Assembly (NCBI GenBank): GCA_903833275.1
Contig: CAILEP010000003.1
Span: 1 to 64,000, forward strand
Reading direction: 5' to 3'
DNA: 64,000 bases
DNA from: an uncultured Bdellovibrionales bacterium
GTDB lineage: Bacteria; Bdellovibrionota; Bdellovibrionia; Bdellovibrionales; UBA1609
The position numbers and the translations under genes were made by a program. How positions within the stretch are numbered: position 1 is the first letter of the stretch; the number at the start of each line of letters is the position of its first letter. A model generated the notes under the pieces. It had not been told where the DNA came from, searched no databases, and saw only the letters and a list, made by a program, of their open reading frames with translations. This document shows, in pieces, positions 11,642 to 58,942 of this stretch.

Positions 11642-11729
11642 GCTTTCAGCATGCGAGACTTTACTGTCGCTGACAACATTTTTGGCTTGTTGATTGCAGT
11701 ATCAACCCACAAGCGAGGCGACAGGTCTT

Positions 11730-40866: not shown

Positions 40867-41813
40867 AATAGATTTTGTTCTTTCATCCACTTGTCGTCGA
40901 TAAATTTCGACATATAGTTGCGAACCCCGTCAGGCAAAATGATAACGCAGTTTTGACCGGCCTCAAGTTTGCGCGCGGCTTGATGAGCCGCAAACAGTGC
41001 CGCACCGCTTGAGCCACCACACAATAGCCCTTCTTCGCGAATCAAGCGACGAGCCCAAGAAAAAGAGTCACGATCGTTTGACTTCACCCATTGGTGAATT
41101 TTGATATCCTTCATTACATCCGGAATAAAATCATAGCCTATGCCTTCAACCAAATAGGTTTTGATATCACCAGAGCCCGCAAGAATAGAGCCTTCAGGGT
41201 CAACCCCGACCACTTTTGCTTTCGGCACTTTCTCGCTCATACATTGGGCGATACCGGCAAGTGTGCCGCCGGTGCCAGCCGTGATCACCACCATGTCAAC
41301 CTGGCCATTGAGATCATCGATAATCTCGTGCGCCGTGGTTTCGTGATGCGCTTTCGGATTGTTCACATTCGCGTATTGATCAAGAATGTGAGCGCGCGGC
41401 AATTCTTTGCAAAGTTTTTTAGCGACTCCGATATGACTCTCTGGCGCATCAAATGCGGCTTCAGTGGGAGTCCGAATAATCTGGGCACCAAGAGCCTCGA
41501 GCACCACTTGCTTTTCGCGACTCATTTTTTGGGGCATAGTGATAATCACTTTATAGCCAAGTACCGCCCCCGCAAGTGCGAGGCCAATTCCAGTATTGCC
41601 AGAGGTTGGCTCGATCAAAGTATCGCCTGGTTTTATACGACCGGACTTCTGAGCCTCAACCACCATACGATAAGCAATTCGATCTTTAATCGAACCACCC
41701 GGATTAAAATATTCACACTTCGCAAATAAGTTACACTTAAGCCCGGCGTTAACGCGGTTAAGTTTCACAAGCGGAGTGCGGCCAATGGTTTCTAATATAT
41801 TGTTATAAATCAT
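40863..41813 (-). CDS. Cysteine synthase / cystathionine beta-synthase (PLP)
   Basis: 316 residues. Fold-type II PLP enzyme with the PLP Lys in [29 protein letters not shown] and [13 protein letters not shown]. Segments [30 protein letters not shown] and [10 protein letters not shown]...[13 protein letters not shown] resemble cystathionine beta-synthase more than CysK. The C-terminal CBS regulatory domain of eukaryotic enzymes is absent. It makes cysteine from O-acetylserine, or cystathionine from serine and homocysteine. It is translationally coupled to rimK and lies 30 bases after the nucleoside phosphorylase gene. Confidence 0.88.
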
Positions 41814-41843
41814 AGAGTTTAGATTAGGGCCGGCAGCCCTATT

Positions 41844-42599
41844 TCACAATTCGCAACGCGAGGCGATGATGGCTTCCGCCACCAGTTGCATCTGCTTTCT
41901 TGCGGCTGAAAAGTCACTTCGCCACTGGTCTGGCCAAAGCTCATCCGAGATCACCAATAAACTCGCGGTTTCAACCTTCAAACAGTGGCCTATGGCGTAC
42001 AAGGCTGAGGTCTCCATATCAACTGCGGCAAGCCCGGCCTGAGCATATTGACGAATCTCTTTCTCCGTTTCGCGAAAAAGAGCATCAGTGCTCCAAACAG
42101 GCGCTTCTTTGTAAATAATCTTAGATTTCGAAAGCATCCGTCGAAGATAACCAGCACACCGCTCTGTACCGAAAGAAAATTCGGCCGGAGGCACGTAATG
42201 CGACGAAGTGCCCTCATCTCTCAACGCCTTGGTGACCAAAATCAAATCGCCAATTTTTTGTTCAGCCGAAAGAGCCCCCGCCTGACCGAGAGCCATGATG
42301 ACCTTCGCCCCAAAAGCCACGAGAAGCTCAATATAGAACGCCATGGCCGGGGCACCGATACCAAAATTCGAAAGCACACCAATATCAGTTGCAGGCGCAA
42401 GCTCGAGCCGAGCACCAAAAAATGACTTCACCTCAAGTTTTCTATGCCATTTGGGCGAACTCTGAAGACCAAAGTAAAGCAGGATTGTTTTTGGCAGATC
42501 GTACTTAGGCAATCGATTGGTCTTCTTTAGTTCAGCCATTAACATTGAGGCCTGAACTTTGCCCTTTTCAGAATACTTGCTCGCCCGTGCGCTGTTCAT
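41844..42599 (-). CDS. Purine/uridine phosphorylase family protein
   Basis: 251 residues. Nucleoside phosphorylase-1 superfamily: VLSNFGIGAPAMAFYIELL (phosphate loop), ALGQAGALS, ALRDEGTSSHYVPPAEF, and the ribose site AVDMETSALYAIG. The RDEGTSSHY segment is closest to uridine/purine phosphorylases rather than MTA/SAH nucleosidase, but a hydrolytic nucleosidase is not excluded. It overlaps hemH by four bases within the heme operon. A link with heme synthesis is not evident. Confidence 0.83.
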   Translation of the reverse strand: MNSARASKYSEKGKVQASMLMAELKKTNRLPKYDLPKTILLYFGLQSSPKWHRKLEVKSFFGARLELAPATDIGVLSNFGIGAPAMAFYIELLVAFGAKVIMALGQAGALSAEQKIGDLILVTKALRDEGTSSHYVPPAEFSFGTERCAGYLRRMLSKSKIIYKEAPVWSTDALFRETEKEIRQYAQAGLAAVDMETSALYAIGHCLKVETASLLVISDELWPDQWRSDFSAARKQMQLVAEAIIASRCEL

Positions 42600-43660
42600 T
42601 TCTTAAATGCCTGCCATTTCTTCTTATCATGAACAATCTCGCTCGCCGCGCGCACCCAGCTGTCAGAATCATTCAAGCACGGGACGAGTTTTAAATCATC
42701 GCCACCATGAGATCGAAATTCTTCGCGCCCTCTGATCGCGACTTCTTCAAGAGTTTCTAAACAGTCGGTGACAAAAGACGGGCAAGCCACCAATAACCGC
42801 TTAACCCCTTTTTTCGGAAGCTCGCGATAAAAAGCGTCAGAAAACGGTTGAATCCACCCAGAGGTTAGCCTCGACTGAAAGCCAATCGAAATATCCCGCG
42901 GACTAAATCTCACGCCTTCGCGAGCTCGACAAAACAAATCGCGACGAATGACTTCAGAGGTCTCGTAACACTGCCGCCGATAACACTGCCCATTCTTCTC
43001 GGTCTTCTGCTGCGAACATGAACCGTTGCCCTCACATTGTGCCGAAATTTTCTTAACATGGCTTACCGGCAACCCGTGATAACTCAAAAGCAAATGATCA
43101 GCATCAAACCCGCGATTGGCCGAAGCAATATTGTCACTCCAAACCGCAGCGACGTCGACGTTGTCACAAAACTCTTCGATAAAATAACTTTGACCACGAA
43201 AATTGGTTTCAGCAAAAACCTCACGACAAAGATTAAGCACTGTTTCAGTCGAAGACAGAGCGTACTGCGGGTACATCGGCCAAACGTAAATCTCTTTTGC
43301 TCCGCCGCGAATTGTCTCGCTCAGTTCGTGCCGCAATGATGGCTGACCGTAGCGCATTGCCAACTTAACCGTAAACCCGTCATCACCCGCAGCCTTCTCA
43401 GTGGACTTCAGTTTTTCAAAGAATGCCTTTGAATGAAACATCAGCGGCGAACCGTCGTCGCGCCAAACTTGTTGGTAGGCATGGGCCGATTTACGCGAAC
43501 GCGTTGGCACAATGATCCCGCTTACCAATATCCGCCGAAACGGATTCGGGATATCGATTACATATTTATCATTGAGAAATTCGCGAAGATAGTGCGCAAC
43601 CGCTTTCGGCGTCGGCGCTTGCGGAGTACCCAAATTGACAATCAAAAGTGTCTTACTCAT
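42596..43660 (-). CDS. hemH: Ferrochelatase with internal Cys-rich insert
   Basis: 354 residues. It inserts Fe2+ into protoporphyrin IX, the last heme step. The start LLIVNLGTPQAPTPKAVAHYL and FLVDKYVIDIP-like FLNDKYVIDIPNPFRR fit the family. The catalytic His is in LLSYHGLPVSH. Between this and the second half is a Cys-rich stretch with spacing C-x5-C-x10-C-x4-C (in SAQCEGNGSC and GQCYRRQC), consistent with the internal [2Fe-2S] class of bacterial ferrochelatases known from Myxococcus. Later FQSRLTSGWIQPFSDA and CPSFVTDCLETLEE are family blocks. It overlaps both neighbours. Confidence 0.95.
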   Translation of the reverse strand: MSKTLLIVNLGTPQAPTPKAVAHYLREFLNDKYVIDIPNPFRRILVSGIIVPTRSRKSAHAYQQVWRDDGSPLMFHSKAFFEKLKSTEKAAGDDGFTVKLAMRYGQPSLRHELSETIRGGAKEIYVWPMYPQYALSSTETVLNLCREVFAETNFRGQSYFIEEFCDNVDVAAVWSDNIASANRGFDADHLLLSYHGLPVSHVKKISAQCEGNGSCSQQKTEKNGQCYRRQCYETSEVIRRDLFCRAREGVRFSPRDISIGFQSRLTSGWIQPFSDAFYRELPKKGVKRLLVACPSFVTDCLETLEEVAIRGREEFRSHGGDDLKLVPCLNDSDSWVRAASEIVHDKKKWQAFKK

Positions 43661-44862
43661 ATCTCTGCCTTTATTCGTTGAGCGAGATCAAAATTGTATT
43701 GCAGAATTTTTGCCAGCCCAATTCGACCCAGATAATTGCCGGTTAGATAAAGGCCCGGAGGGCAGGCCAGCTTTCTTCTGACTTGGTTTAACTCGAGATT
43801 ATAGTGAGGGATCCCATGCGGCCACCGCGTGACTTTTAGGCCCTTCACCTGCCCCACGTCATTAACCCCAAAAAGCTTGCGGCGATCGCCTAAAATTTTG
43901 TTCTCGAGGTCACCAACCTCTGCATCATTAAAAATCCAAGTTTCGGTTTGAAAATTCTCACTGGCTCGATCCGAAAAGATACACGAGCTCATTAAAACAC
44001 CGAGTGCCGAAAATTTCTCTTCAGGTGCAAATAGACAGCCGAAGCCTTCAAGAGTCGGCGCCGCTGCATCGAAGGCCACTGTTACAGTGGCCACCGGCAG
44101 ATAATGAATCTTCGCCAGCTCGGCGGCTAGAGCCGGGTGCTCGGCGGCGAGAAGCACGGCCGCTTCTGCGGCCGGCACAGCAAGAACAGTTGGATACCGA
44201 AAATGAGTAAAATGACCCGAGCCAACCACAATCTCTTGACCATTCGCTCTTATCTTACGCTCGAGGGCGTCTATAACGGCCCCCATTCCGAGCTTTGGCG
44301 CCACCGTACCACGATATTTCACCTTTCGCGTCACCCGTGCCGACGAAGCAAACATCGAGTCGTAGATCGCCTCGGCGCTCAAGTCACTGCTCGCGTAAAT
44401 ACCCTGCAATGCGGGGGCTACCAGAAATCGAAAAACTTCATGGCCAAAATTTCTTCCGACCCAACCCCTTACTGTTTCTCCAGCGCGAGGTCTTCGAGAC
44501 CAGCGCGCCGACCAAGACAAAAGAAACATTCTGAGCACGCCCAAAACAAAACCAATTGTTTCGATAAAATTAAGCGGCCAGCGGCGAGGGCCGCCGCGGT
44601 AGATAAATCGTTTTCGACTCGCAAGACTGATCTCGGCCATCTCAACGCCGAGATCGGCCATCACATCTTCAACCAATTCAGAATTAAGCATTCCGGTGGC
44701 GGCCGATTCGGCAAGCCCCCACGCCTCTCGAGAGCTCGAGATTACTCCACCAAGCCGATTGTTTTTTTCATGAACGACGGCTTGCACACCGAGGCGCGAT
44801 AAAAAATAGGCAAGAGTGAGCCCTGAAAAACCGCCGCCAATAATTTCAACACGTTGGCCCAT
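43657..44862 (-). CDS. hemG: Protoporphyrinogen oxidase, flavin type
   Basis: 401 residues. An FAD enzyme (HemY class, often named HemG) oxidising protoporphyrinogen IX to protoporphyrin IX with O2. N-terminal dinucleotide site RVEIIGGGFSGLTLAYFLSR followed by EKNNRLGGVISS; a middle substrate region; C-terminal FAD contact LYLTGNYLGRIGLAKIL. About 60 residues shorter than Bacillus HemY. Position between hemE and hemH fits, although coproporphyrinogen oxidation (HemF/HemN) is missing from the window. ATG follows no strong ribosome site; it lies 12 bases after hemE. Confidence 0.88.
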   Translation of the reverse strand: MGQRVEIIGGGFSGLTLAYFLSRLGVQAVVHEKNNRLGGVISSSREAWGLAESAATGMLNSELVEDVMADLGVEMAEISLASRKRFIYRGGPRRWPLNFIETIGFVLGVLRMFLLSWSARWSRRPRAGETVRGWVGRNFGHEVFRFLVAPALQGIYASSDLSAEAIYDSMFASSARVTRKVKYRGTVAPKLGMGAVIDALERKIRANGQEIVVGSGHFTHFRYPTVLAVPAAEAAVLLAAEHPALAAELAKIHYLPVATVTVAFDAAAPTLEGFGCLFAPEEKFSALGVLMSSCIFSDRASENFQTETWIFNDAEVGDLENKILGDRRKLFGVNDVGQVKGLKVTRWPHGIPHYNLELNQVRRKLACPPGLYLTGNYLGRIGLAKILQYNFDLAQRIKAEI

Positions 44863-44874
44863 TTAACCTAAGCC

Positions 44875-45912
44875 CTACTTAAAGGTTTCTCGAACAATAT
44901 CGATAAAAAGTTTAACATTGTCTTCTGGGGTCTGAGGCAAAACCCCATGGCCTAAACCGCAAACCCAGCCAGCGCGTTTTTTTGGCTCCATATTTCTAAA
45001 CGGAGTCAAAAACTCAAGAACCCGTTTCTTCAGCACACTCGGTTCTGCGAAAAGCAGCGCTTGATCAAAGTTTCCTTGTACAAACCCCGTTGTGCGCTTA
45101 ACCAAAAGGTCGGGTACGTTCTGGCGATGGTCGACGCCAATGCCCGCGAGATCTTTCAAGTCTAGTAAATGCGGGCCGAAATGCTCAACATTTGTTTCTT
45201 TCGAATAATAACCCAACTGACCCGAAAAATTCTTGGCGAGACGCGCGATACCCGGCGCCACATAGTGCTGAAAGAGCGTGGGGCTCAATACGCCTGCGGC
45301 CGGGTCAAAAATCATCACCACATCGGCCCCGCCCTCGAGCTGCAGATGAATGTTCTCGATTAACAATTCAATCATCAGTTCAGAAAAATTGGCAAAAAAA
45401 TCAAGATCAGCTTTAGCCGCGATCGAATTGGTGGCAAAGAATTCAGGGCGCTTGGCATCAAGCGGAGAAACCGCGTAACTAAAGAGCGTCCACGGCCCGC
45501 CGACAAACCCAATCAGACCTTTTTCTTTAGGCAACCGTTGTCGAATCAATCGCATAGCATCGCCCTGAAAGGTTAATTGCGAAACGGCTTCTTCTACACT
45601 TTTCAAAGCTTTCAAATTATGTGGAGTCAAGGCCCGGTCAAGTTTGGGCCCAGGCTCATAGGTCAAACCCATGCCGAGCGCCTCTAACGGAAAAAGCAAA
45701 TCGCTAAATAGAATAGCCACATCATAATCAAAGTCTTCGATCGGCCCCATGGTCACTTCAGCTGCGAGCTCGGGGTTTTTGCACATATCAATAAACTCAT
45801 GTTTGGCTCGAATTTTTTGATAATGTTTGTGATATCGACCCGCCTGGCGCATAAACCAAATCGGTGGAACATTCTGCTCCGTTCTTCTTAAAGCTTTACT
45901 AAATTTAGTCAT
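44875..45912 (-). CDS. hemE: Uroporphyrinogen III decarboxylase
   Basis: 345 residues, normal. It removes four carboxyls from uroporphyrinogen III to give coproporphyrinogen III. Family blocks: PPIWFMRQAGRYHKHYQKIR (signature with the Arg residues), AILFSDLLFPLEALGMG (catalytic Asp), GFVGGPWTLFSYAV, and GLGHGVLPQTPEDNV. The ATG at 45912 follows GAGGGG and overlaps the response-regulator gene end by eight bases; an upstream in-frame start would lie deep in that gene. Confidence 0.96.
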   Translation of the reverse strand: MTKFSKALRRTEQNVPPIWFMRQAGRYHKHYQKIRAKHEFIDMCKNPELAAEVTMGPIEDFDYDVAILFSDLLFPLEALGMGLTYEPGPKLDRALTPHNLKALKSVEEAVSQLTFQGDAMRLIRQRLPKEKGLIGFVGGPWTLFSYAVSPLDAKRPEFFATNSIAAKADLDFFANFSELMIELLIENIHLQLEGGADVVMIFDPAAGVLSPTLFQHYVAPGIARLAKNFSGQLGYYSKETNVEHFGPHLLDLKDLAGIGVDHRQNVPDLLVKRTTGFVQGNFDQALLFAEPSVLKKRVLEFLTPFRNMEPKKRAGWVCGLGHGVLPQTPEDNVKLFIDIVRETFK

Positions 45913-46579
45913 TTTGCCCCTCAACTTGCCATTGATAACCAATACCGCGAACAGAACGAATAAACTGACTTCCACCCTCGCCCAAAGCTTGCCGAATTCG
46001 AACAATCACGTTATCGACGGTCCGATTTGACGGGAACTCTTCTTGACCCCAAACCTTGTCGAGAAGCTCATCCCGACTCACCACTTTGGGCGCCTGATCG
46101 ATCAGGTATTTTAAGACCTGCGCTTCGCGCTGATTCAAATCGTCGACACGCCCTGGCGCCTCAATTCGCATGGCGAGAAAATCAATTTTGATATCCCCAA
46201 CCAAAACAACACTCGCCCGAGCGTGATTCTCCAGCACGTGTCGAACTCTCAGTAGCAATTCGCGAAGATGAAAAGGCTTCGGAATAAACTCATCGGCCCC
46301 CATCTCGTAGCCGCGCAAACGATCTTCAGCCTCACTCTGTGCAGTGACGAAAATAATCGGCACCGAAATCTTACCTTGTATCTCTCGAGCTAAATCAAAG
46401 CCACTGCCATCAGAAAGACCAACATCCAATATCAACAAATCGAATTTTTTAGACTTAAGCTGGTCACGTGCATGGGCCAAAGTTTCGACCCATTCAACCG
46501 CAAAGCCTTCTTTCTTCAAACGCTCAGAAAGTGTTGAGCCCAAACTTTTATCATCCTCAACCAAAAGCATATGACTCAT
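45905..46579 (-). CDS. OmpR-family response regulator in the heme operon
   Basis: 224 residues. Receiver domain with LLVEDDKSLGSTL, phospho-Asp in LLILDVGLSDGSGF, Thr in IIFVTAQSE and Lys in FIPKPFHLREL. C-terminal winged-helix DNA-binding domain (residues 130-220): LNQREAQVLKYLIDQ, VSRDELLDKVWG, SNRTVDNVIVRIRQALGE and SVRGIGYQW. It overlaps the kinase gene by four bases and hemE by eight, so it is translated together with heme enzymes and probably controls this operon or heme-using genes. Confidence 0.94.
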   Translation of the reverse strand: MSHMLLVEDDKSLGSTLSERLKKEGFAVEWVETLAHARDQLKSKKFDLLILDVGLSDGSGFDLAREIQGKISVPIIFVTAQSEAEDRLRGYEMGADEFIPKPFHLRELLLRVRHVLENHARASVVLVGDIKIDFLAMRIEAPGRVDDLNQREAQVLKYLIDQAPKVVSRDELLDKVWGQEEFPSNRTVDNVIVRIRQALGEGGSQFIRSVRGIGYQWQVEGQND

Positions 46580-47463
46580 GAAACGACCGCCCCTGTATCA
46601 TGGTTAACAACTCGACCAGGCAAGGACAGTAAGATAGAAAAACCCTTAGCAGCATTGAGAAATGAAATTTGACCACCCTGGCGAGCCAAGTAAGATTTGA
46701 CTGTATAAAGGCCAAGGCCACTTCCGCTTTTCGAAGTGGGGCGATAGAAAACCTCACCCAGCCTTTTAACATCACCTTTGTAACCGCGGCCATTATCTGA
46801 GAATCGAATGGTCACGGTGGCGACATCGACAGCTGCGATCTCGATGTGCACTTCGGTGCTCTCACCATGCACGATCGCATTGTGAAAGAGATTATTAAAT
46901 ATTGACTCGACCGCTCGCCGATCGGCTTTCAACTTTGCCTCGCCCACGCAAATAATTTTTAACCGAGGCCATGAATCTCGTAAAATCTCGATCAGAGGCA
47001 ATAAATCAAATTCTTCAGAAAACAAACCGCGGCTCTCGGCGCCGCCAACAAAGAGTGAATTTTCGACTTGATTCTGCAATCTCGAAGTATCTGTGGCCAA
47101 CCGATCAATCAGATAAGTGAGGTCAGGGTCGCGATTGTCAGCCTTTAGACTCTCCGTTTGAAGACGAACCCCCGCCAAAGCAGTTTTCACGTCGTGAGAA
47201 AATCGCGCTAGAAATTCGCGCAGCCGACCAGCCTGGTCACTTTCTCGATTTATGAAGTAAATCAAAGTGCCACCACCGACGATAAGCAGGCCAAGCAGAG
47301 TCGCGCCCTCCCATAAAAGCATCGAGCGAAAGCGACCAGAGTCGCCATCAAATTTTGAAATTAAATTGAGCGCGAACCGCATCCACCAAACAATCAGAGC
47401 GCTTGTCAGCAGCAGCCACGCCATTGCCAAAGCAATTCGAATAAATCGACTTCTATTTACCAT
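46576..47463 (-). CDS. Membrane sensor histidine kinase in the heme operon
   Basis: 295 residues. Two transmembrane helices (residues 8-30 and 49-68) flank a periplasmic loop of only about 20 residues, typical of intramembrane-sensing kinases. No HAMP or PAS domain is evident. The His box is [19 protein letters not shown] site: [23 protein letters not shown] and [14 protein letters not shown]. It overlaps hemL by 11 bases and its response regulator by four. The signal could be a membrane or heme-related cue, judged only from gene context. Confidence 0.93.
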
Positions 47464-48760
47464 AGGCTTTGAGCGCCCCAGCGAGAATAATTTGCCTCGC
47501 CTCTTTTAAAACAGCATCGGTGTGAGCGAGAGATACAAAACCAACCTCAAAGCCACTTGGCGCTAAATAAAGGCCAGCCTCTAAACAAGAGTGAAATAGA
47601 ACTTTGTAGCGGTCTCGCATGTTTTGATCAAACTCTGCCGGCGAGCGAAGAGCCTTGTCTCCCTGACCCGCTGGGCGAGCGTGAAGCCAGAAGATAGAAG
47701 CGTAGTGGGCCATAACCCAGGGCAGGTCATTTTTCTTAAAATCATCGTTCAATGTTGCGGCGAAGGCCGTTGTCCGCTGTTCGAGCACATGGTAAACATT
47801 CTCGCGTTCAATTTTTTGCAGCGTCGCAAGACCCGCGCGAACACCAACAGGGCTAGCGGCCAAAGTGCCCGCTTGGTAAACCGGGCCATTGGGCGCCACT
47901 AAATCCATCAGGTCGGCGCGGCCACCGTAAATGCCAACCGGAAAGCCCCCGCCCACTATCTTACCATAGGTCACAAGATCTGGCTTGATATGCAACTTTT
48001 CAGCCATCCCACCCAAGCCAACTCGAAAACCAGAAATAACTTCATCAAACAAAATCAGGGCGCCGTGCTCCCGAGCAATCTCACAGACTTTTTCAATAAA
48101 CTCTGTTCGCTGCACAAGCAGACCAAAATTGGCAGGCAAGGGCTCAAGAATAACTACGGCGATTTCAGAGCCATGCTCTGCAAATATTTTCTCGACAGTC
48201 TCTTCGTCATCAAGTGCTGCCACCAAAGTGTCACGCGCCAAGGCTTCCGGAACTCCGGCGCTGTCAGACGCGGCACTGCCCGCGAGGCCGCTGCCAGCTT
48301 TTACAAGTAACGAGTCAGCATGACCATGGTAGCAACCTTCAAACTTCAAAATTCGATGGCGCCCAGTTGCAGCCCGTGCCACTCGCAAGGCGCTCATCAC
48401 CGCTTCGGTGCCCGAACAAACAAAACGAAGCTTTTCAACAAACGATAAGCGCGCTGTGATCCATTCGGCTAATTCTAAGGAGTACGGGTCGCACGCACCG
48501 AACGACCAGGCATCTTCAACCGCCTCGCGCACAACTTTAGCCACATCAGGGTCACGGTGCCCGAGAATATTCGGCCCAAAGCTCTGACAAAAATCAATGT
48601 AGCGCCGACCTTCAACCGAAGTGAGATAAGCCCCTTCTGCCGACTTAAAAAATACAGGCACGCCGCCAACACTTTTAAAGGCCCGAACCGGGCTGTGCAC
48701 TCCGCCTGGTGCTACTTTTTTAGATCGTTCGAATAGCTCTTGAGAATTCATTTGATTCAT
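47453..48760 (-). CDS. hemL: Glutamate-1-semialdehyde 2,1-aminomutase
   Basis: 435 residues, normal. A PLP enzyme converting glutamate-1-semialdehyde to 5-aminolevulinate (C5 pathway). Blocks: [70 protein letters not shown], and the PLP Lys in [22 protein letters not shown] at 48760, with a second at 48751. It follows hemC by 33 bases, the largest gap among the heme genes. Confidence 0.97.
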
Positions 48761-48793
48761 TTCGCTTTCTGGTCAGAATTTGGATTCAAATCG

Positions 48794-50365
48794 TTAGCAA
48801 ATTTGCTCTAGCCACGATTCTCGCGAAATATAAATATCAAGTCTAGCTGTTTCGCTCGGCAGAAGCCGTCGCAACTGGGCATAGATTAAGTCGAAACTAT
48901 GGCCAGGCCCACAAGCATGCCGACCATTAATGATGCTCGGTGCCAGCTCGAGCGCCCTGGCAAATACCGAGTAACTCGGCCAGAAAAAGTGGGTTTTACC
49001 GGCAAGCTCGGGCGGATTATCCACCGCTACCAACTTGTAAGTGGCCAACGCCGGCATTTGACTCTCTATCTCAGTGGCCGCGGAGTGTGTCAATTTTAGA
49101 AAATTTAACTTTCGATTCATTAGGGTTTCAATATTGGCTGGCTCGCGCTCACCCAAGCTCTCGTTCGAACCGGTTATCCAAAGGCCAAGCGCCGCTAGTT
49201 TACGCCACGATTCGAGCCCACTGACCCAGATCACACGATTTTCTAGCGCCATCGTCGAGGGCGCACCGTCAGGCCAGGCTTCGGCCCGAGCCACCCAAAG
49301 ATCACGGCCCGCGAGCAGCCCGAGATCAACCGAAAGTCTCTCACGCCGAAAAAAACTCGAATCCTTCATGGTGACCGGAAACACTTTGCCTTTAGCTACT
49401 TTACCTTCAGAAACAACCCGTTGTATTTTTGGCTCAAGCTTTACATACGAAAAACTTTGCCCGTTTGGTGGTTCACCACGGCCAAAATCGACTCGCCCGT
49501 ATGGCTTTTCAAGAGACGTTAACCCGATCTTTTGATGGCAACCGCCGCCGTAAGATTTAAAAATATGGCGTTCAAAGTTAACTTCGCGAAAAGTCTTTTC
49601 ACAATTTACGGACTTTAATAGGGCGCGAAGGTCGGCGCGAGAACTTAAGATCTCAATAGCCAGCGCCCCTTGAGCCGGCGCGGCCGGGCTCGCGGTCAGT
49701 GGCACCACCATAAACATGCACTGCTCGAGCGCCGTTCGCAATTGCTCTCGAGGCAGATCAAACTCGGCCCCGGGCGCACTCAACAGCCGATCGATGGCCG
49801 CTTTAGCGACCATCAAACCGTCGGCGTCACCTTCGATCAATTTCTGCACTCGCGTTAACATGTTTCCGCGAACACTCGCGAATTCAACTTCACACTTAAA
49901 TGGCAGGGCCCACTTGAAAAAATCGCTTAAATTATAACCGCGCCGAGGCGACGAGGTAAAAACCTTTATAACCACCTGTGACGGCTCTTTATTTAAAAAC
50001 GCATTTGACGAAGACGCTTTTGCTAGACTCGATTTCTTAAACAAGAAAAGATCACGCACGTCCGCGCGCGGCAATGTCGCCACGATCTCGCTCAACACGG
50101 GCGGCGCGAGCTCAGTGGGCAAATCCTTCCAGCTGTGAACAACAAGATCGCACTCGCCGCGCTTGAGCTTTTCAGTGAGGTCGGCTGTGAAAACGCCTTT
50201 TTCAGGCATCTTCCAAAGCGGATCCTCCAGATTTTGATCGCCGAGCGACGTTGAAAAAAGATACTCAATCTCGACGTGCGGGTTCTTATGTTGGATGCTT
50301 CGACCGACCTCGTAGGCTTGCAGGCGAGCCAGGTCACTTTTGCGAGAGGCGATTTTGAGGCGCAT
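48794..50365 (-). CDS. hemC: Porphobilinogen deaminase fused to a HemD-like domain
   Basis: 523 residues against about 310 for HemC alone. Residues 1-290 or so are HemC: RLKIASRKSDLARLQAYEVG, GVFTADLTEKL, VHSWKDLPTE, TSSPRRG, RGNMLTRVQKL and APAQGALAIE. The dipyrromethane Cys is in YGGGCHQKIG. The C-terminal half contains WVSGLESWRK, THSAATEI, FFWPSYSVFARALE and HACGPGHS, which fit a divergent uroporphyrinogen III synthase (HemD). I prefer the ATG at 50365 (AAAAGG upstream) to an in-frame start at 50443. It overlaps hemA by 32 bases. No separate hemD is present here. Confidence 0.88.
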   Translation of the reverse strand: MRLKIASRKSDLARLQAYEVGRSIQHKNPHVEIEYLFSTSLGDQNLEDPLWKMPEKGVFTADLTEKLKRGECDLVVHSWKDLPTELAPPVLSEIVATLPRADVRDLFLFKKSSLAKASSSNAFLNKEPSQVVIKVFTSSPRRGYNLSDFFKWALPFKCEVEFASVRGNMLTRVQKLIEGDADGLMVAKAAIDRLLSAPGAEFDLPREQLRTALEQCMFMVVPLTASPAAPAQGALAIEILSSRADLRALLKSVNCEKTFREVNFERHIFKSYGGGCHQKIGLTSLEKPYGRVDFGRGEPPNGQSFSYVKLEPKIQRVVSEGKVAKGKVFPVTMKDSSFFRRERLSVDLGLLAGRDLWVARAEAWPDGAPSTMALENRVIWVSGLESWRKLAALGLWITGSNESLGEREPANIETLMNRKLNFLKLTHSAATEIESQMPALATYKLVAVDNPPELAGKTHFFWPSYSVFARALELAPSIINGRHACGPGHSFDLIYAQLRRLLPSETARLDIYISRESWLEQIC

Positions 50366-51290
50366 AAACCTTTTCGCGAATATGATTTTGAGCCTTTGCG
50401 ACTTGCTCGTCGACACGCCCCTTAACGGCTTCAATTTCGTCAAAGATAATCTTAAGCGGCAAATACCGACTCTTGGCCTCGCTGCCTATTGCCTCGACCA
50501 ACTCAAGGTTGTCGTGCGCCGATTCACCGCGAAAGTCTAATATCAATTCTGAACCGTCCAGGGCTTCAGCCGCCCAAATCTTAATTTCTCTGCTCGACAA
50601 CGGTGCGAGCAGCAAGAGCGCACCCAACTTTTCAGGGCGCTGGCTAAGTGAAAACACTTCTACTTGTTGGTTTCGCTTTGGCAAATCAGCAAGCTTTTCA
50701 GGGCTTCTAACAAAAATTCTAATTTTTAAATCGAGTTTCAATATCCAAGGCAATATCTCTCGCAGCAAGTGGCCGCCACCAACGATATCAACCTGCGAAC
50801 ACTCTCGAACTTTACGTCGTGTGATGCTACCGTAAGATTGACTGCCCAACCCACGCAGATGCAAGTCGCGCACGACTTTCGATTCGGCGTAAGCGTGCTT
50901 TAAAAGTTTTTTAAGCCAACCGTTTTCTAATGTTTCACAGAAAATTTTAAATTGGCCCTGAACTTCGGTTTCGCCCTTCACTGGCGAATGCAACCCGCAA
51001 ATAATCTCAAGTAAAAACTCATAAGCTTTCAGCCCCTGAAATATCTCATCCCCTGGGCGCATTTCGGTTTCAACCGCAAAGTCGGCGTTACCGAAAGCGA
51101 GGCGACGAACACAGGTTTCCCAAAAACGCCAAGTCGTTTGCTTAAATTCGAAATTAAAATCAGCCGGTTGCCCGGCCAAATTATTGGCCGCCAAATTACC
51201 GCTAAGTGCATTGCGCCGACGATGCACAATCACAAAAGAAGAAATTAACGAATCGATGTCGCTCGAGTTGAAAGCTAGTTGAGAAGCCAT
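50334..51290 (-). CDS. hemA: Glutamyl-tRNA reductase, divergent and short
   Basis: 318 residues; usual length is about 420. It reduces glutamyl-tRNA to glutamate-1-semialdehyde, the first committed step. The catalytic Cys is probably Cys60 in FWETCVRRLAF, matching the usual S-T-C-N-R. Further family signals: LLEIICGLHSPVKGETEVQGQFK (normally GLDSMVLGE..Q) and the NADP strand VDIVGGGHLLREIL. The C-terminal dimerisation domain is much shortened. No ribosome site precedes the ATG at 51290. It is first in the heme operon. Confidence 0.85.
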   Translation of the reverse strand: MASQLAFNSSDIDSLISSFVIVHRRRNALSGNLAANNLAGQPADFNFEFKQTTWRFWETCVRRLAFGNADFAVETEMRPGDEIFQGLKAYEFLLEIICGLHSPVKGETEVQGQFKIFCETLENGWLKKLLKHAYAESKVVRDLHLRGLGSQSYGSITRRKVRECSQVDIVGGGHLLREILPWILKLDLKIRIFVRSPEKLADLPKRNQQVEVFSLSQRPEKLGALLLLAPLSSREIKIWAAEALDGSELILDFRGESAHDNLELVEAIGSEAKSRYLPLKIIFDEIEAVKGRVDEQVAKAQNHIREKVYAPQNRLSQK

Positions 51291-51484: not shown

Positions 51485-52729
51485 ATGTTTCAAAATGGGA
51501 CATTTTTAGCGAATTTAATCTCGTTATTTCGCATGGTTATATCAACTTCCTTGCTTCTTACCTTCATCGCCTGCTCAAAGACTAATACTGCCGATGTTGC
51601 CGTTCGTCGGCGCGGCGATAACCAAAATCGGCAAATCAGCGCCGGCACCCTTTTGCAGCAGGCAACTGAAACCACTGGTTCAAATGTCGCAGGCTACGCC
51701 GGCCTCGGGTTGGTGAGCTTAAAGAGCATCGATCGCGCCATCGATTTTGCGCTCAATCAATCGAAAGCCAGCCGACAAGAATTTTGCCAGACCGTAAATG
51801 TCTCGAAAGAAAATGAAAGCAGCACAAAAGTAGAGATCGTAACTGATCTTCGATTGTGCAAAGTCTGGAGTGGCATTGAAACCCTCATCGTGCGCTCAAC
51901 TAGCGACAAGACGGCCGCCTCTAGCGCCATCACGAAAGTCGGCCTTCAATCGATATCGAAATCTGACGACTCGCCCCTTAACATAAATGGCCCTGAGGGT
52001 TCAAAAACTCAACCCACCCTGATCTTACAAGAGAGCTACACCATCACCCAAAAATCAGGGGCGATATACTCCTTTAGCTACACGGGCAAAATGAACTACG
52101 CCTATTCAATGACAGTGTCGACACCCGCCCCCCGTCGCCAATCGGACGCGAAACCCACAGGGCCGAATTCGCCGAAACCGATAGCTCCCGTACCTGCACC
52201 CCCGCCGGCCGAAGTAAAGACAACTTCCTATCAGCATAAATCAACTATCACTGCCGCCGGCGCGATTGACTTAACCGACCTCAGCAATCGCAAAATTATT
52301 CTTGATAGCCTTGAAGTGGCTCTGATTTTTGGCCAAGACAGCAAAGCCATTTTCTCTACAATTGTAACGACGGCCGCCTCTGGGTCACCGATGCCGATCA
52401 CTTGTGGAGTGCCCACTGGTACGATCGCATTTGAGCAAACGTTTACCGACGAAACCATAGCGGCGAGCTCGGCCTCTGACTCGGCTCGATCGAAAACCTT
52501 TCACCCAACAGTGAAGATCGAAAATAGTCAGATTAACGACATGCGCGCTCTACCGACCTGCACGACCGTGAAAGGTTTTTCTGATCTCCAAGAAACCGTA
52601 GCCACTTCGACGAACTACATGGTAAACGGCACGGCACGAAAAATTCAGACTTCTGCAGCATTTGCTGAAGACTTAAAAACCAATGAAGTAATGCCGACTC
52701 GCGATGCGCTCGAATCAACACCAAATTAG
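51485..52729 (+). CDS. Lipoprotein of unknown function
   Basis: 414 residues. A lipobox TFIAC ends the hydrophobic segment (VISTSLLLTFIAC, residues 17-29). The mature part has two beta-rich regions joined by a Pro/Ala-rich linker (TGPNSPKPIAPVPAPPPAEV). Few cysteines: one pair in VTITCGVP-like MPITCGVP and in LPTCTTV. The ATG at 51485 has a GAGG site nine bases upstream; a start at 51533 lacks one. It precedes a giant membrane protein gene by 60 bases on the same strand, so an operon is likely. Family not recognised. Confidence 0.7.
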   Translation: MFQNGTFLANLISLFRMVISTSLLLTFIACSKTNTADVAVRRRGDNQNRQISAGTLLQQATETTGSNVAGYAGLGLVSLKSIDRAIDFALNQSKASRQEFCQTVNVSKENESSTKVEIVTDLRLCKVWSGIETLIVRSTSDKTAASSAITKVGLQSISKSDDSPLNINGPEGSKTQPTLILQESYTITQKSGAIYSFSYTGKMNYAYSMTVSTPAPRRQSDAKPTGPNSPKPIAPVPAPPPAEVKTTSYQHKSTITAAGAIDLTDLSNRKIILDSLEVALIFGQDSKAIFSTIVTTAASGSPMPITCGVPTGTIAFEQTFTDETIAASSASDSARSKTFHPTVKIENSQINDMRALPTCTTVKGFSDLQETVATSTNYMVNGTARKIQTSAAFAEDLKTNEVMPTRDALESTPN

Positions 52730-52789
52730 AGAGCCACTTCATGCATTTGTATTTGTTTAATATTGGACGTACTTGAAAGGACATTGCTC

Positions 52790-55700
52790 GTGAATCTTCG
52801 AAAATCGACCAAAGCCATCTGTCTAATTCTGGCGACCCAGATGGGTCTGCTTTCACCGGTTGAGACTTTGTGGGCGCAAAACTCAAATGCCGCTTCTGAA
52901 AATCAAAGCTTTGCCCCCGACTTCAATTTAACTGAACTGCAAAAACTCGATGCCAACCTGCGGGATTTCGCGCAAAACCGAGCCCCCTTGCCAGACAACG
53001 GGCCCATCGATGCCCGCGACCCCAATTTAGATCAAGATCCGTTTTTTATGCGTTCACAATCTTGGGGTCACACTATCGCGACCGCCTTGAAGAACGCGAA
53101 TGAGGCCACGGCCTATGAAACCCACGCCGGCAGCCTCTCGATTCAATTGCCAAACTCAGAGCGCTCTTTAAATATCCGCCAACCGCTTGCCCCCGTTTTC
53201 GAAACCGACAATTTTTTAATTCTTCAGGCCACCGACAATGCGATCTTTCAGGCCAAAGCTCATGATGCTGAGGCCTATGGTGAAGGTCTGTTCTTTGTCG
53301 ATAAACGACCGATGCAGGTTGAACTCGCTCGAACACTCAACCCTCGCCCAACGCCGATCTATTTTTTACCGCTTGGCGGCCGCGGCTGGAGCACGAAGGT
53401 CGATGCCATTTCGGTTGGCCCCAACCAAGTTTTAGCGTTTCGCAACGCCGAAGGCGACAGCGCCACAGTAGATGCCGATCAGCTCAACACTCTCTCGCAG
53501 ATCTACCAAACAAACTTGGTGGCCGCGATTATCATGACCCTAAAGCACGACCCCGCGTTGTTGCAAACCACAATGTCAGCACTCAAGGCCCAAATTCTAT
53601 CAGGCCAAAGAAGTGACGGCGTCGAATTGCCATTTGCCTACCCCGCTCGCGGCAGCACGGCGGCCTTCGGCGTGTTTTTTACCGGCGTCAATTTAGAGCA
53701 CCCAGATCAGTCAATCGATGCGCTCACCAACACCGGATGGTCAGTCAATCGCTTCAAATTTGCTCTTATACCCGAAGCCAACGCCAACGACCTTTTTACT
53801 CCTGATCTAGTTGATCGCTTGCTGCTCATCTGGAAGATCACTTCAATCACTTACGGAGTGAGCTTCGTCGCTCAAATGACCGTGCTACGCGAGCGCATGC
53901 TTGAGCGCCGAGCCCTTATCGAAAAACGCCAAGATGAAGCCGACGCAAAAGTTGGCAAAGAACCGCGCGACCGAAGCGGCTGGTTCTTTAAAGCAAAACG
54001 CGGCTATTTAGAATCGATCGACGTTTGGGTTCACGGCCTCAACACGGTCTCAACCGGCCTCACTACGACCGCCGGCTTTTTGGCCGAATATGCCTCTGAT
54101 CGCTTCGCTGGCGCCATCGGCCGCTCCGACAATGGTCTTATTCGCCGTTTCTTAAAATGGACCTTTCTCTACAACCGCAAACAAAATGATTTCGTCGCGG
54201 CCAATTGGTATTCATTCTATCTCGGCGGCATTATCTTGGGCGGGGTCGACACCGCCGGCGTAGCCCTTCAATTGGGCTTCGTCAGCGCCGTATTCTTTCC
54301 GTGGGTGGCGCATACCTTTTTCGGCGCAGCCGTTCAGCAACGAATCGACAGTCAGTTCGTTAATGCTCAAGCCGAAAACGGCAACAATATAAGGAGTGAG
54401 GTTCTACGTAACTTCTCAGGCTATACTGTTAACGGCGCCTCGTCCTATTCGTCAGAACGTCGAAATCAGTTTCAAGAGATCATTCGCCCCGAAGTTGCGA
54501 AAGAATTTGCCCGCGAAGGCAAAGACCCCAAAGACCCTCGCTACGCAGAGTCGTTCGAAGACCGAGTTGAAGAGCAACTCGATATGACGATGATTTCGCG
54601 CGGCCTACCCTCGCGCAAAGAATTTCTATTCAGCGCGCCAACCGTGGTGCGAAGTCTTGCTGGCCTAATGGGCTTCAAAGTTGATCGCACCCAGCCGACT
54701 GAAGATGGCAAAAAAATTAGAGACTCATTTGTGCTTGAAAATGCCCGCTGGGGTTTACTCGGCCATGTGTTGAAAGTGGCTTACCAAAATGCTCTTAAAT
54801 TGGCCGAAACTCACCCGAATGATGCGGATGCCGCCGCCACGGTCGAGCTACTTAAAGCGACCAAAGACGACTACCATACCGTTTACAAAATTCTTCGAAA
54901 CCCGTTAAAAGCGGTTGAGGCCGCGAAGGCCGGCTACAAAGTGCGCCAGATGCTGACACTCTTAAGCTACCAAGGCCCCGTCATTGGCGACACCATCAAG
55001 TACACAAACCTTTGGCAAGCGGCCAAGAGCAACCCAAACGCTGCACAAATTGCAGGTCGCCTGTTTCGACAATCTCTCTTTGCCGTGACCAACAATAAAC
55101 CTCTCTACCTCTCGCCGACTGAATCCGATATTAAGCTCTATATCAGCGAAGCTCGCGCAGCAGCCGACGAAGAGCTTAAAGCCGCTGACCCAAAAGTGGG
55201 CTTTACTGAAGTCGATCGCGACATTCTCGCTCTCGAAAAAGTGAAAGCTAAGGTCGAAGAGACCAATGCCAAAATCGAAGCATCCGAATGGCAACCCGAG
55301 AAACCCGATCTAGTCGAAGTCTACCAGCGTTCAGAAGCAAAATCGCGCGCTCTTGCTCGAGCCGTAAGTCGCGAGCAATACAAAGAAGCCTATCGCGAAG
55401 AGCTTTCAAAAATTGTCGGCCTCTATGCTTTGCCAAAAGAGCAAAGCGAATTGGTGCGCCAAGCCTCAACTGCTGCAGAAGAAGAGGTTGCAACGAACCT
55501 CGAGCAGAGCGATGGCTGGAAGCAGTACATTAACACGCTTGACGACTCTGGGCGTTTTGATTTTCTAACTCATCAGTACGCCGACGCTTTTTTATCGAAC
55601 TATCTGAAATTAACTGTCGGCAACTCGAGCGTCGTGAGCCTCACAAGCCCCGAGCAGCCCGGTCGCTTTCAGCGATTGCGCCAAAAGCTTTCGTGGCAAA

Positions 55701-56281
55701 ATAAAACTTGGTTTAAAAGCGAGCGACTAAATAAGTGGCTCAACAACGCGGGGCAAATAGCAAGCAAGACGGCCAATCTCACTGTCCGATTGGTTGAATC
55801 GCCCATGAGCAACTCGGCCTTTAAACCCGGCACCAAAAACATGTTGTTTCGAAATGTACCCTTTATCGGCGACACCTGGACTGATTTGCGCCAGCGCGTT
55901 CGTTCAATTTGGGTGGCTGGGTCCGTGGGTTACTTATCGCAGTATTATATCTGGCAGGTAAAGTTCGCTTGGCCGACCTATATATTCTTCTTTTCGACAC
56001 TGACCTTTGTGGCCACGGTCAGCTACTGGCTCGATCGCATGATGATGAATATCGGCGTCAAGCCGATGAGTGGCACCGTCGCCAAGGCGATTTACTCGTC
56101 GATCTACACCTGGGCCACTTACCCGACGTATATACCATTCTTCTTTTTCTTAAAGGACTATCAAGACTTTTTCGCCAGCTATGTCGCGGGCCCATTTTCG
56201 CAATATATTGCAAACCCGATAACCCAAAACGTAGTGGCGCCTTTGATTAGAACTTGCAGTCAACTTTTGGGTGGCGGCTAG
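52790..56281 (+). CDS. Large (1163-residue) multi-pass envelope protein of unknown function
   Basis: Signal-like N terminus (ICLILATQMGLLSPVETLWA) followed by a soluble region of about 300 residues. Hydrophobic helices occur near residues 350-375, 480-530 (YLGGIILGGVDTAGVALQLG) and in the last 150 residues (YIFFFSTLTFVATVSYW, YIPFFFFLKDY). Between them is a long charged, helical, coiled-coil-like region (about 780-900, rich in KxxxE). No ATPase or known enzymatic motif was found. The GTG at 52790 follows AAAGGA; a TTG at 52763 is in frame but weaker. Its role with the upstream lipoprotein is unknown. Confidence 0.8.
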   Translation: MNLRKSTKAICLILATQMGLLSPVETLWAQNSNAASENQSFAPDFNLTELQKLDANLRDFAQNRAPLPDNGPIDARDPNLDQDPFFMRSQSWGHTIATALKNANEATAYETHAGSLSIQLPNSERSLNIRQPLAPVFETDNFLILQATDNAIFQAKAHDAEAYGEGLFFVDKRPMQVELARTLNPRPTPIYFLPLGGRGWSTKVDAISVGPNQVLAFRNAEGDSATVDADQLNTLSQIYQTNLVAAIIMTLKHDPALLQTTMSALKAQILSGQRSDGVELPFAYPARGSTAAFGVFFTGVNLEHPDQSIDALTNTGWSVNRFKFALIPEANANDLFTPDLVDRLLLIWKITSITYGVSFVAQMTVLRERMLERRALIEKRQDEADAKVGKEPRDRSGWFFKAKRGYLESIDVWVHGLNTVSTGLTTTAGFLAEYASDRFAGAIGRSDNGLIRRFLKWTFLYNRKQNDFVAANWYSFYLGGIILGGVDTAGVALQLGFVSAVFFPWVAHTFFGAAVQQRIDSQFVNAQAENGNNIRSEVLRNFSGYTVNGASSYSSERRNQFQEIIRPEVAKEFAREGKDPKDPRYAESFEDRVEEQLDMTMISRGLPSRKEFLFSAPTVVRSLAGLMGFKVDRTQPTEDGKKIRDSFVLENARWGLLGHVLKVAYQNALKLAETHPNDADAAATVELLKATKDDYHTVYKILRNPLKAVEAAKAGYKVRQMLTLLSYQGPVIGDTIKYTNLWQAAKSNPNAAQIAGRLFRQSLFAVTNNKPLYLSPTESDIKLYISEARAAADEELKAADPKVGFTEVDRDILALEKVKAKVEETNAKIEASEWQPEKPDLVEVYQRSEAKSRALARAVSREQYKEAYREELSKIVGLYALPKEQSELVRQASTAAEEEVATNLEQSDGWKQYINTLDDSGRFDFLTHQYADAFLSNYLKLTVGNSSVVSLTSPEQPGRFQRLRQKLSWQNKTWFKSERLNKWLNNAGQIASKTANLTVRLVESPMSNSAFKPGTKNMLFRNVPFIGDTWTDLRQRVRSIWVAGSVGYLSQYYIWQVKFAWPTYIFFFSTLTFVATVSYWLDRMMMNIGVKPMSGTVAKAIYSSIYTWATYPTYIPFFFFLKDYQDFFASYVAGPFSQYIANPITQNVVAPLIRTCSQLLGGG

Positions 56282-56292
56282 TTTCGTAGAGT

Positions 56293-58170
56293 CTAAATTA
56301 ATTCTAGGCCCCGACGGATTAAAGTACCGACCGTCGGGTTGTCGTGACCAATTCGAACGAGTTCAGCCTTGAGCTGCGAATCGAGCTTGGCGATCTCCGG
56401 AGCCGCCTTGCGTGCACTTGCCAGCACCTCAAGCATCTCGAGTCGAATGAGCCACTCTTTCGGATAGTGGGCGCGAAGCTCTTCGCCAATTCGACAAAGC
56501 TCTTTCGTAACGGCAACTGAATAACCCACCGCCTTACGGCGACCAGCTCGCGACCTTTGCTCGCGGATTTCTCGAATTTTTTTATAGAAGGGCAATAAAC
56601 CACGATTCTCTTTGGTAACAGTCGACGCTTGGGCCCGCGCCTGTGGCTTTAACTTACCTTTACCTGCCCCATAGGCGATTCGATCGGCAGCCCCGCCGAA
56701 CACCGAAATGACGTCCGCACCACAGGCCATATCAAAAGGCCCCCACTCGGGCTGAAACAAAACGATATCGCCGCGAAAAACGGTGCAATCTGAAAATGTT
56801 AAGACCAAATTCTGCACCAGATTTCTAAAATGTTTTCGCGGCTTTTTACCGTTTACTTTCTTCTTCAACACTTTTTTAAGAATACCTTCAACGACTACTC
56901 CGGATTCAAATTCGAGACGACCGCGATGATTCTTGTAAAAACCATGGCTCGCTAAATCACGGGCTGTGAGATGACTGGCCGTCTTGCCAAAACCCATCAC
57001 GCGCCCGATCGGGGTGCCATACCCATGAGCATGGTAACGGCCCGAATGACCCTTAAGCTCTTTGTCACCGAAACTGAGTTGCGTTGGCCCAGTAAACTGC
57101 AGGTAAACGGGCGAGCCGAATCTATCGAGCGCTTTTTCTTGATCGTCGAAAACATGATCGACTGTCGTTTGCCACGGCGAACCAATTTCGCCGAGCTTAA
57201 GCGTATGCACCGCCGCCAAGGCGCCACTCATCTGCAAACCATTTTCTAAAACCACAGTGTTAACGGTTTGCGCGCGCTTGGCTCGAGCGAGGCCTTCGAG
57301 CCCGCCCAACTTGTAACTCAATTGATTGGCCAACTGATCGATGACTTTCTTTAGCTTGGCAAAACTCTCGATATAGAAAAGTTGAGGCTGAGGCTTGGTG
57401 ATATCATAATTAACATTCACGCATTCGATGGTGAGCTCTCGGTGCGGGACATTCTCTGCGAAGAAGCTATAACTCTCGCCCACCGACGATAAAAGCCCGG
57501 CGCCATAAATTTTGAAATCTTTTTTGGTTTTAATTAATCCATACTCTGTCGACCACCACCCTAGGCGAGAAAGCTTCGAAGCTTCGCTGGTGTAGGTGAC
57601 ATTTTTTAACGCCCGATTGAGCCGCTCGTAGGCTTCAGCAATATTGACCTCTGTCGCCGCGGTGCTTTCTTTGAGATCAGATAAATATTTTACAGCCTCA
57701 TAGACCTCTAAATCTTCTTGAGCAAATATCGCCTTACGGGCGATTTCGCCAAAATTATGTAGGTAATTGGCAAACTGCCGATCTGAAATAATTGGCGCGT
57801 GACCGGCCGCTTCGTGCACAATATCGGGGCTGGGCGTGTACTCCAGGTGTTCAAGTCGGCGAATATCGCATGCGATGGGTAAAATACTTAAACTTAAAAA
57901 TTCGAGAAAAACCGATGGTGGTATAAAGCCCGTCACCGGCACGGCCTTCCAACCAAACCTTTTCAGCTTTTTGCTCATTGTTGAAATTCGTGGGATTTTT
58001 TCTGTTTCAATCCCGGTTTGATCAAGCCCCGACAGATATTTACTGTGCGCATGCTCTTTGAAAAATCGACGAGAAACGCGCATGATGTAGCGCCAACTTG
58101 CATGATCCATTGACGAGTAGTTCTCGTATTTTTGGCGCGCGATATATTGAGCTAAATGCGGAGGGATCAT
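56293..58170 (-). CDS. Aromatic amino acid (phenylalanine) hydroxylase, extended
   Basis: 625 residues; classic bacterial PAH has 260-300. The N-terminal half holds the catalytic domain: EYTPSPDIVHEAAGHAPI with the two iron-binding His, and GWWSTEYGLI with the iron Glu, plus FANYLHNFGEIARKA. It would hydroxylate Phe to Tyr (or Trp) with a tetrahydropterin and O2. The C-terminal half (about residues 330-625) has no domain I know. A TTG at 58245 is in frame but lies within the upstream nucleotidyltransferase gene, so I take the ATG at 58170. Confidence 0.88.
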   Translation of the reverse strand: MIPPHLAQYIARQKYENYSSMDHASWRYIMRVSRRFFKEHAHSKYLSGLDQTGIETEKIPRISTMSKKLKRFGWKAVPVTGFIPPSVFLEFLSLSILPIACDIRRLEHLEYTPSPDIVHEAAGHAPIISDRQFANYLHNFGEIARKAIFAQEDLEVYEAVKYLSDLKESTAATEVNIAEAYERLNRALKNVTYTSEASKLSRLGWWSTEYGLIKTKKDFKIYGAGLLSSVGESYSFFAENVPHRELTIECVNVNYDITKPQPQLFYIESFAKLKKVIDQLANQLSYKLGGLEGLARAKRAQTVNTVVLENGLQMSGALAAVHTLKLGEIGSPWQTTVDHVFDDQEKALDRFGSPVYLQFTGPTQLSFGDKELKGHSGRYHAHGYGTPIGRVMGFGKTASHLTARDLASHGFYKNHRGRLEFESGVVVEGILKKVLKKKVNGKKPRKHFRNLVQNLVLTFSDCTVFRGDIVLFQPEWGPFDMACGADVISVFGGAADRIAYGAGKGKLKPQARAQASTVTKENRGLLPFYKKIREIREQRSRAGRRKAVGYSVAVTKELCRIGEELRAHYPKEWLIRLEMLEVLASARKAAPEIAKLDSQLKAELVRIGHDNPTVGTLIRRGLELI

Positions 58171-58189
58171 GGCAATATCATAGGAGCGC

Positions 58190-58942
58190 TTAAGGCCTTT
58201 GGGAAGTCGTATGGGGCAGCGTAGCACGAGAGCTCTTTCGGGCAAGATCTTGAAACTGATCTAGCTCAACACCGGCCTGACTTATTGAAAGATGACGCCA
58301 CTCAGAGCCATCACCCTGACTCTGGCGCGAATTCATTGTGCTCTTCAATAGACTTTCGAGAACCCGCACCCCGTATCGCTTTTGAAACCCAAAGAGCCCC
58401 CACCCCCTGGCCCCAGCCACCCAAGAGGTCGGTTTTTCGGCGTGGGTCTTGTGCTTAAGATCTACTGCGCCCCAACATTTAAGGTCTTTTGCTTTAAAAG
58501 TCGCCCAAACAAGAGGAGTTCTTCGCAATCTCTGATCTATTACTTTAAATATCTGCAAGGGCCGAAAACGCGTATCTGGCAGACAGACAATATTTTTAGC
58601 TCGCCAGAACGGTCGACTCAAGAGCAAGGTGTCAGGCCACTCACGGGTGACCCCGACGATTTGAACACTTAGTTCTTGGGTTTGGGCTCGCTTCTTCAGG
58701 TAACGGACGAGGGCTTTCTTTTCGGGCCGCACAATGACGTGCGCCGCAAGATTCATCGTCTTCGCCAAATCAAGACAATGGGCGATCATAGGTTCCGTCA
58801 AAGACTTAGAAACCCCTCGAGCACCCAAGGCCGCCACCTTCACTCTCAGCATTTCTTTAGCTATCGGCGAACCCACGCGCCGACCAAAACCCGCCGCCGG
58901 CACAATGACTAAAGTTTCGCTATTCGATTTTCGTTTCACCAC
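58190..58942 (-). CDS. Nucleotidyltransferase-like protein
   Basis: 250 residues. The N-terminal NTP-binding loop LVIVPAAGFGRRVGSPIAKEML matches sugar-phosphate nucleotidyltransferases (G-x-G-x-R-x(n)-K). CLPDTRF supplies the Mg-binding Asp in place of the usual D-x-D strand end. It presumably makes an NDP-sugar or similar activated intermediate. The C-terminal 35 residues are polar and probably disordered. GTG start at 58942. It is upstream of the hydroxylase gene on the same strand (19-base gap) and divergent from a glycosyltransferase gene. Confidence 0.78.
   Translation of the reverse strand: MVKRKSNSETLVIVPAAGFGRRVGSPIAKEMLRVKVAALGARGVSKSLTEPMIAHCLDLAKTMNLAAHVIVRPEKKALVRYLKKRAQTQELSVQIVGVTREWPDTLLLSRPFWRAKNIVCLPDTRFRPLQIFKVIDQRLRRTPLVWATFKAKDLKCWGAVDLKHKTHAEKPTSWVAGARGWGLFGFQKRYGVRVLESLLKSTMNSRQSQGDGSEWRHLSISQAGVELDQFQDLARKSSRATLPHTTSQRP

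Follow-up and report, generated by a model that had tools for sequence, protein, structure and literature searches.

What are the two adjacent plus-strand genes at positions 51485-56281 of the window, i.e. the whole 64,000-nucleotide stretch analysed here from an uncultured Bdellovibrionales bacterium, and does the larger product belong to any known system? The initial annotation had read them as a lipoprotein gene followed by that of a 1163-residue multi-pass protein of no recognised family, the latter a candidate for a new envelope machine. Both open reading frames were confirmed. As argued below, what stands is a new envelope protein family that, on the evidence of sequence and gene order, is coupled to a lipoprotein; its status as a 'machine' is unsupported.

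The upstream gene A (51485-52729, +) encodes a 414-residue lipoprotein without a family. Read from the ATG at 51485, its product has a signal peptide predicted to be processed at a lipobox Cys (FIA↓C), and is probably sorted to the outer membrane, since the residue at +2 is Ser; starts at ATG 51449 or ATG 51533 are also possible, the latter giving MVISTSLLLTFIAC↓SK. Gene A is counted as a real gene because two congeners have homologues of it (loci L048 and L049), the lipoboxes of which read LSA↓C and LMA↓C.

The larger gene B (52790-56281, +; its features are all on this strand) is single-copy in its genome and starts with a GTG at 52790, preceded by GAAAGGA and separated from gene A by 60 nt. 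It is likewise taken as real, because 15 stop-free homologous proteins of its branch, here termed B1, align over their length. The signal-like N terminus, the soluble region and the charged region between hydrophobic segments that had been described were all recovered. A predicted signal peptide (residues about 1-37; 52790-52900), with a hydrophobic segment (residues 9-27) that is kept in the alignment and a likely cleavage site near LWA↓QN, precedes the motif DQDPFFMRSQSW (residues 81-92; 53030-53065) and a beta-rich, probably periplasmic, domain (residues about 85-230; 53042-53479), the latter as seen in the structure model. The alignment then supports predicted transmembrane helices at residues 343-361 (53816-53872), where the positive charges following the helix would mark the cytoplasmic side, and at residues 475-493 (54212-54268). 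A long charged helical region (residues about 520-1020) follows, within which B1 members have a PGRFQRLRQ motif (residues 957-965; 55658-55684) with P, G and R invariant and Q nearly so. Alignment and model both place further hydrophobic helices at residues about 1026-1115 (55865-56134). The strongly hydrophobic C terminus of the initial annotation was not borne out, in that hydrophobicity stops about 40 residues earlier; the protein finishes in a short tail, CSQLLGGG, of which the conserved part is CSQLL (residues 1156-1160, 7 residues from the end; 56255-56269).

The wider relationships of B became apparent through gene A, a search for homologues of which found, in genomes G001 and G002 of the same genus, an A homologue with the gene for another large exported multi-pass protein directly downstream; in G002 this gene is cut by the end of the contig. 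These proteins define a second branch, B2. By hhalign, B1 and B2 align only over their N-terminal ~180 columns (E 6.9e-5, 14% identity); both have D-P-F-x-[ML]-x-x-Q-S near the mature N terminus, the Gln of which (Gln90 in the window protein) is invariant in 15 of 15 B1 and 32 of 32 B2 rows. Across the 32 rows of the B2 alignment, no column is invariant apart from M1, Q79 and C1206. The window protein has the features of the superfamily, i.e. a signal peptide, the N-terminal motif including the Gln, and the terminal CSQLL. Because B members share only 13-34% identity with the reference row, constraint on the two constant ends must be strong. Proteins of 1,100-1,400 residues that share so little beyond a short stretch towards either terminus are unusual; as every member taken singly resembles an orphan, the family escapes annotation pipelines. 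A mixed alignment of B1 with B2 fragments was left unused, the fragments being scattered.

The C-terminal motif may be written C-x-x-x-[F/L]. A Cys lies within the last 4-16 residues in 46 of the 47 full-length B members, against 2.3 expected by chance, these rows belonging to one family and so being non-independent; at +4 from the Cys, 20 members have Phe and 17 have Leu. Cysteine is otherwise rare in B members (0.2% of residues), and in about ten the tag Cys is the sole one. A stricter tail, C-x-x-[LIVMF]-[LF]-[QK]-P-stop, showed only a modest excess over a reversed control, so that this exact form is not a rule of the family.

The nearest precedent is MYXO-CTERM, in which exported proteins of Myxococcota, whose cognate myxosortase (MrtX) is a CPBP protease, have a Cys that acts as a sorting or anchoring tag, followed by a transmembrane helix and an Arg-rich tail (PMC11980579). 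The likeness lies in an invariant C-terminal Cys on exported proteins, recognised by conservation at the end of the protein, as is seen in 46 of 47 B members. By contrast, all 46 B tails have only 4-16 residues after the Cys, with neither a transmembrane helix nor an Arg-rich tail, and have Phe or Leu at +4. Since these two defining elements are absent, the B tag, as judged from its sequence, is not a MYXO-CTERM member, though it is alike in principle, as a Cys tag at the C terminus. We know of no C-terminal sorting tag that does without both a transmembrane helix and a basic tail, and no description of the C-x-x-x-[F/L] tag was found in the literature searched.

The motif also occurs outside B. 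In 533 exported-like open reading frames other than B from these genomes, selected with a crude export predictor and with expectations taken from internal windows, C...F was counted 10 times within the C-terminal 16 residues, where 2.36 were expected (P 1.8e-4), whereas other spacings do not depart upwards from the about 2.4 expected for each (C..F 2, C....F 2, C.....F 0); in cytosolic proteins C-terminal C...F occurs 4 times against 2.56. The counts on non-B proteins are small. Near the mature N terminus of exported-like proteins C...F is also enriched (15 against 3.9), as is C....F (13 against 4.1), in part because lipoproteins place a Cys there; specificity for the C...F spacing is thus observed at the C terminus only. 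In exported proteins with a single Cys, its location at a terminus is above expectation, with some of the C-terminal count coming from homologues that were deliberately fetched.

One case lies within the window itself. The gene at 11694-12884 (+) encodes an exported protein, unrelated to B and weakly matching a family (LIC_10091/DUF7790-like), that ends in the tag CRELLQP. Its divergent full-length homologues, including those in four other genomes, keep a C-terminal tag, several having no other Cys; tails in the family include GCRELLQP (the window protein), ECLSSFQALSH, SCHKYFM, RCQDFYNYP and HCPYVLKGYD. The relationship to the LIC_10091 lipoproteins (NCBIfam NF047518) is weak (E 8e-4 to 3e-8, with scores far below the family cut-off), and while NCBI names that family lipoproteins, the Bdellovibrionota relatives have a single Cys at the C terminus instead. 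Elsewhere in the same genome, two unrelated exported proteins (L201 412-1395 and L238 246-2327) have tails, NCLDLLQP and NCADLLKPSS, that closely resemble the tags in the window.

The link between B and its upstream lipoprotein comes from gene order. The A-B unit is flanked on one side by a hemA-like gene in divergent orientation (50334-51290, -) and on the other by a convergent gene resembling that of an aromatic amino acid hydroxylase (56293-58245, -), names assigned by reading the sequence. Between it and the window genes at 39955-42599 (RimK-like and cysK) lies a heme biosynthesis cluster (42596-51290: hemH, hemG, hemE, a two-component pair, hemL, hemC-like and hemA-like). In G001 and G002 an A homologue lies directly upstream of B2 (spacing 3 and 22 nt, respectively), and the pair directly adjoins homologues of that RimK-like/cysK block (77% identity for RimK-like, 73-75% for cysK); in G139 a B1 gene adjoins hemH of the same hem cluster. 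From this recurrence of A homologues immediately upstream of B2, next to the same cysK genes in two members of the genus, A is judged to be functionally coupled to B. The shared cysK/hem surroundings imply that the A-B pair stays in one neighbourhood even as A changes in sequence and B is either swapped or changes past alignment. Exchange of two barely alignable B versions behind one lipoprotein partner is unusual. B is usually alone or accompanied by one lipoprotein gene; apart from those in G000-G002, G006, G017, G032 and a small number of further cases such as L174, B genes mostly lack a lipoprotein gene immediately upstream. In G017 (three copies), G032 (two) and G006, the proteins encoded directly upstream of B2 are leucine-rich-repeat (LRR) lipoproteins or secreted LRR proteins (loci L095-L099 and L189), the LRR lipoproteins being unrelated to gene A.

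The reading that we prefer, tentatively, is that B is a hyperdivergent envelope protein, anchored in the inner membrane and partnering an outer-membrane lipoprotein, with its C-terminal Cys serving as a handle common to a wider set of exported proteins. B would be exported by Sec, with its beta-rich N-terminal domain facing the periplasm, and would be held in the inner membrane by its central and C-terminal helices, the long helical domain lying between them. Its partner may be the product of the lipoprotein gene immediately upstream, here A, and together they may bridge or pattern the envelope, while selection would hold both ends of B constant, D-P-F-x-M-x-x-Q-S near the N terminus and C-x-x-x-[F/L] at the C terminus. 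Because unrelated exported proteins also carry the tag, it is read as a handle; most simply, it could act through covalent attachment (lipidation or a disulfide) or through recognition by a common sorting factor. A Cys-Gln thioester joining the two invariant residues of B was also considered. The count of transmembrane helices at the C-terminal end of B is ambiguous; the tag might therefore face the cytoplasm, in which case the parallel with exported soluble proteins would fail. A broader version, which we regard as doubtful, is that terminal C-x-x-x-F/L is a general covalent-anchoring or sorting signal in Bdellovibrionota, located at the C terminus or near the mature N terminus, with B its largest and most constant client or a processing partner. 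Were the terminal Cys such a signal, the surface proteome of the Bdellovibrio phylum would become predictable, and the residue itself is directly testable.

The main rival, to which we give only a modest probability, is that A-B is a variable surface or conflict module, concerned with recognition, self/non-self discrimination, or protection from phage or other predators, in which the lipoprotein would provide outward recognition and B the membrane part in an arms race. Such a role would suit the extreme divergence at a fixed locus, where the window and G001/G002 are 73-77% identical in the flanks, about 23-30% in A, and unalignable in B except for the end motifs; it would also suit the swap of B1 and B2 behind the same A, the switch of partner to LRR proteins elsewhere, the patchy presence of B, and the tandem and broken copies (L178, L090, L086, L188). 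However, fast drift under weak constraint would give the same picture, and the neighbourhoods seen are of a housekeeping type (hem, cysK, prlC, murI) rather than defence islands. Nor did PADLOC, in which no model matches B's branch, support the gene pair as a defence system, and no phage or plasmid record matched B. A phage tape measure, suggested only by a PHROG profile at E 0.064, was rejected on the same chromosomal housekeeping neighbours and absence of phage records, and a mobile element on that marginal PHROG match together with negative phage and plasmid records.

The preferred reading also has to be set against a role as a component of a transport or secretion apparatus, with which the size of B, its signal peptide, its multi-pass topology and the adjoining lipoprotein are all compatible. 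We consider this improbable. As the initial annotation had it, B falls into no recognised family, Pfam, NCBIfam, PHROG, PADLOC and PDB-sequence searches all being without a match and fold searches without a clear one: the window protein reached no curated cut-off in Pfam, NCBIfam or PHROG, and nothing was recognised there at loose cut-offs; the B-family profiles had no convincing match among PDB sequences; and transporter and secretion families in these four collections gave no match consistent across B members. Similarity to an ABC permease (NCBIfam MutE, E 0.03) or to GP63 was at chance level. A match of the B2 profile to gamma-glutamyltranspeptidase (E 3.4e-4) spans 160 helical columns of the large-subunit chain and concerns B2 only; it was put down to resemblance between low-complexity helices. 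Genes for an ATPase, a channel or an Omp85 protein are not regular neighbours of B.

Comparison of folds gave no clear match either. B was modelled by AlphaFold, with a mean pLDDT of 75.7 and pTM of 0.60 from 15 B1 sequences (pLDDT 48.6 from 5), the tag region having a pLDDT of < 50. Foldseek with this model found no match in the PDB or in viral libraries, the best PDB entry being at E 0.21 and TM 0.10, and no known transporter or secretion component was identified by either sequence or fold. With VIA-align, residues ~96-241 weakly resemble beta-propeller blades, e.g. those of nitrous oxide reductase and semaphorin chains, with Z up to 6.4; this is under the level of a shared fold, and spans about 140 of the 1163 residues.

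A predation-specific role for B, i.e. in prey attachment or invasion or as a prey-directed effector, appears about equally improbable. The superfamily does seem confined to Bdellovibrionota in everything searched, as such a role might lead one to expect, and the nine named matches in 84,980 species genomes, found by a pattern-limited search, are all from that phylum. Within it, however, members are present in only 47 of 369 genomes and are absent from most close relatives, the named matches are all metagenome-assembled genomes, and no characterised predator was found with B, so that the link to a predatory lifestyle suggested initially is not supported. By branch, 16 of the phylum's 369 genomes carry B1 (12 of 144 when the class alone is counted) and 34 of the 369 carry B2, three genomes having both. 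Presence is patchy even inside the genus: G005, a 99% complete genome, has no member, and at its cysK locus, over the about 1.5 kb read, the next gene encodes an unrelated small lipoprotein.

That B1 and B2 are non-homologous, having acquired the tag and the DPFxxxxQ motif independently, would fit with profile comparison finding nothing beyond the N-terminal region, yet is hard to credit given the hhalign E value in that region, their common partner A and common locus, and their same size and order of features (signal peptide, DPFxMxxQS, beta-rich region, transmembrane helices, terminal C-x-x-x-[F/L]).

Some further observations concern individual loci. An inverted repeat, CCCGACGG/CCGTCGGG (56310-56338), is not taken for a terminator, as it falls within the terminal part of the convergent gene and has no T run. 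Several B2 copies are split into several frames (L086 4899-8651, L188 5729-9212 and G098:C74:34448-37411), and are apparently broken genes or assembly errors. L090 has two divergent B2 copies, and L178 (2410-8616) a tandem B2 pair with a 4-bp overlap. Head-to-head with a B1 gene in G143 (L050 3269-6919) is a gene for a third kind of exported multi-pass protein, ~1216 residues long and with a C-terminal Cys, that is matched by neither the B1 nor the B2 profile. Exported variants of the leucyl/phenylalanyl-tRNA-protein transferase fold (PF03588), with one Cys, in an N-terminal C-x-x-x-[F/L], adjoin or lie near B genes (L012 3941-5257, L084 4407-5732, and L085 2073-4148 and 8581-9659, the L085 proteins being without a Pfam match and similar to that of L084); they are unrelated to B in sequence, the terminal motif being the only common feature. 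An exported alpha/beta hydrolase with the N-terminal form of the motif likewise adjoins or lies near B genes (L013, L041).
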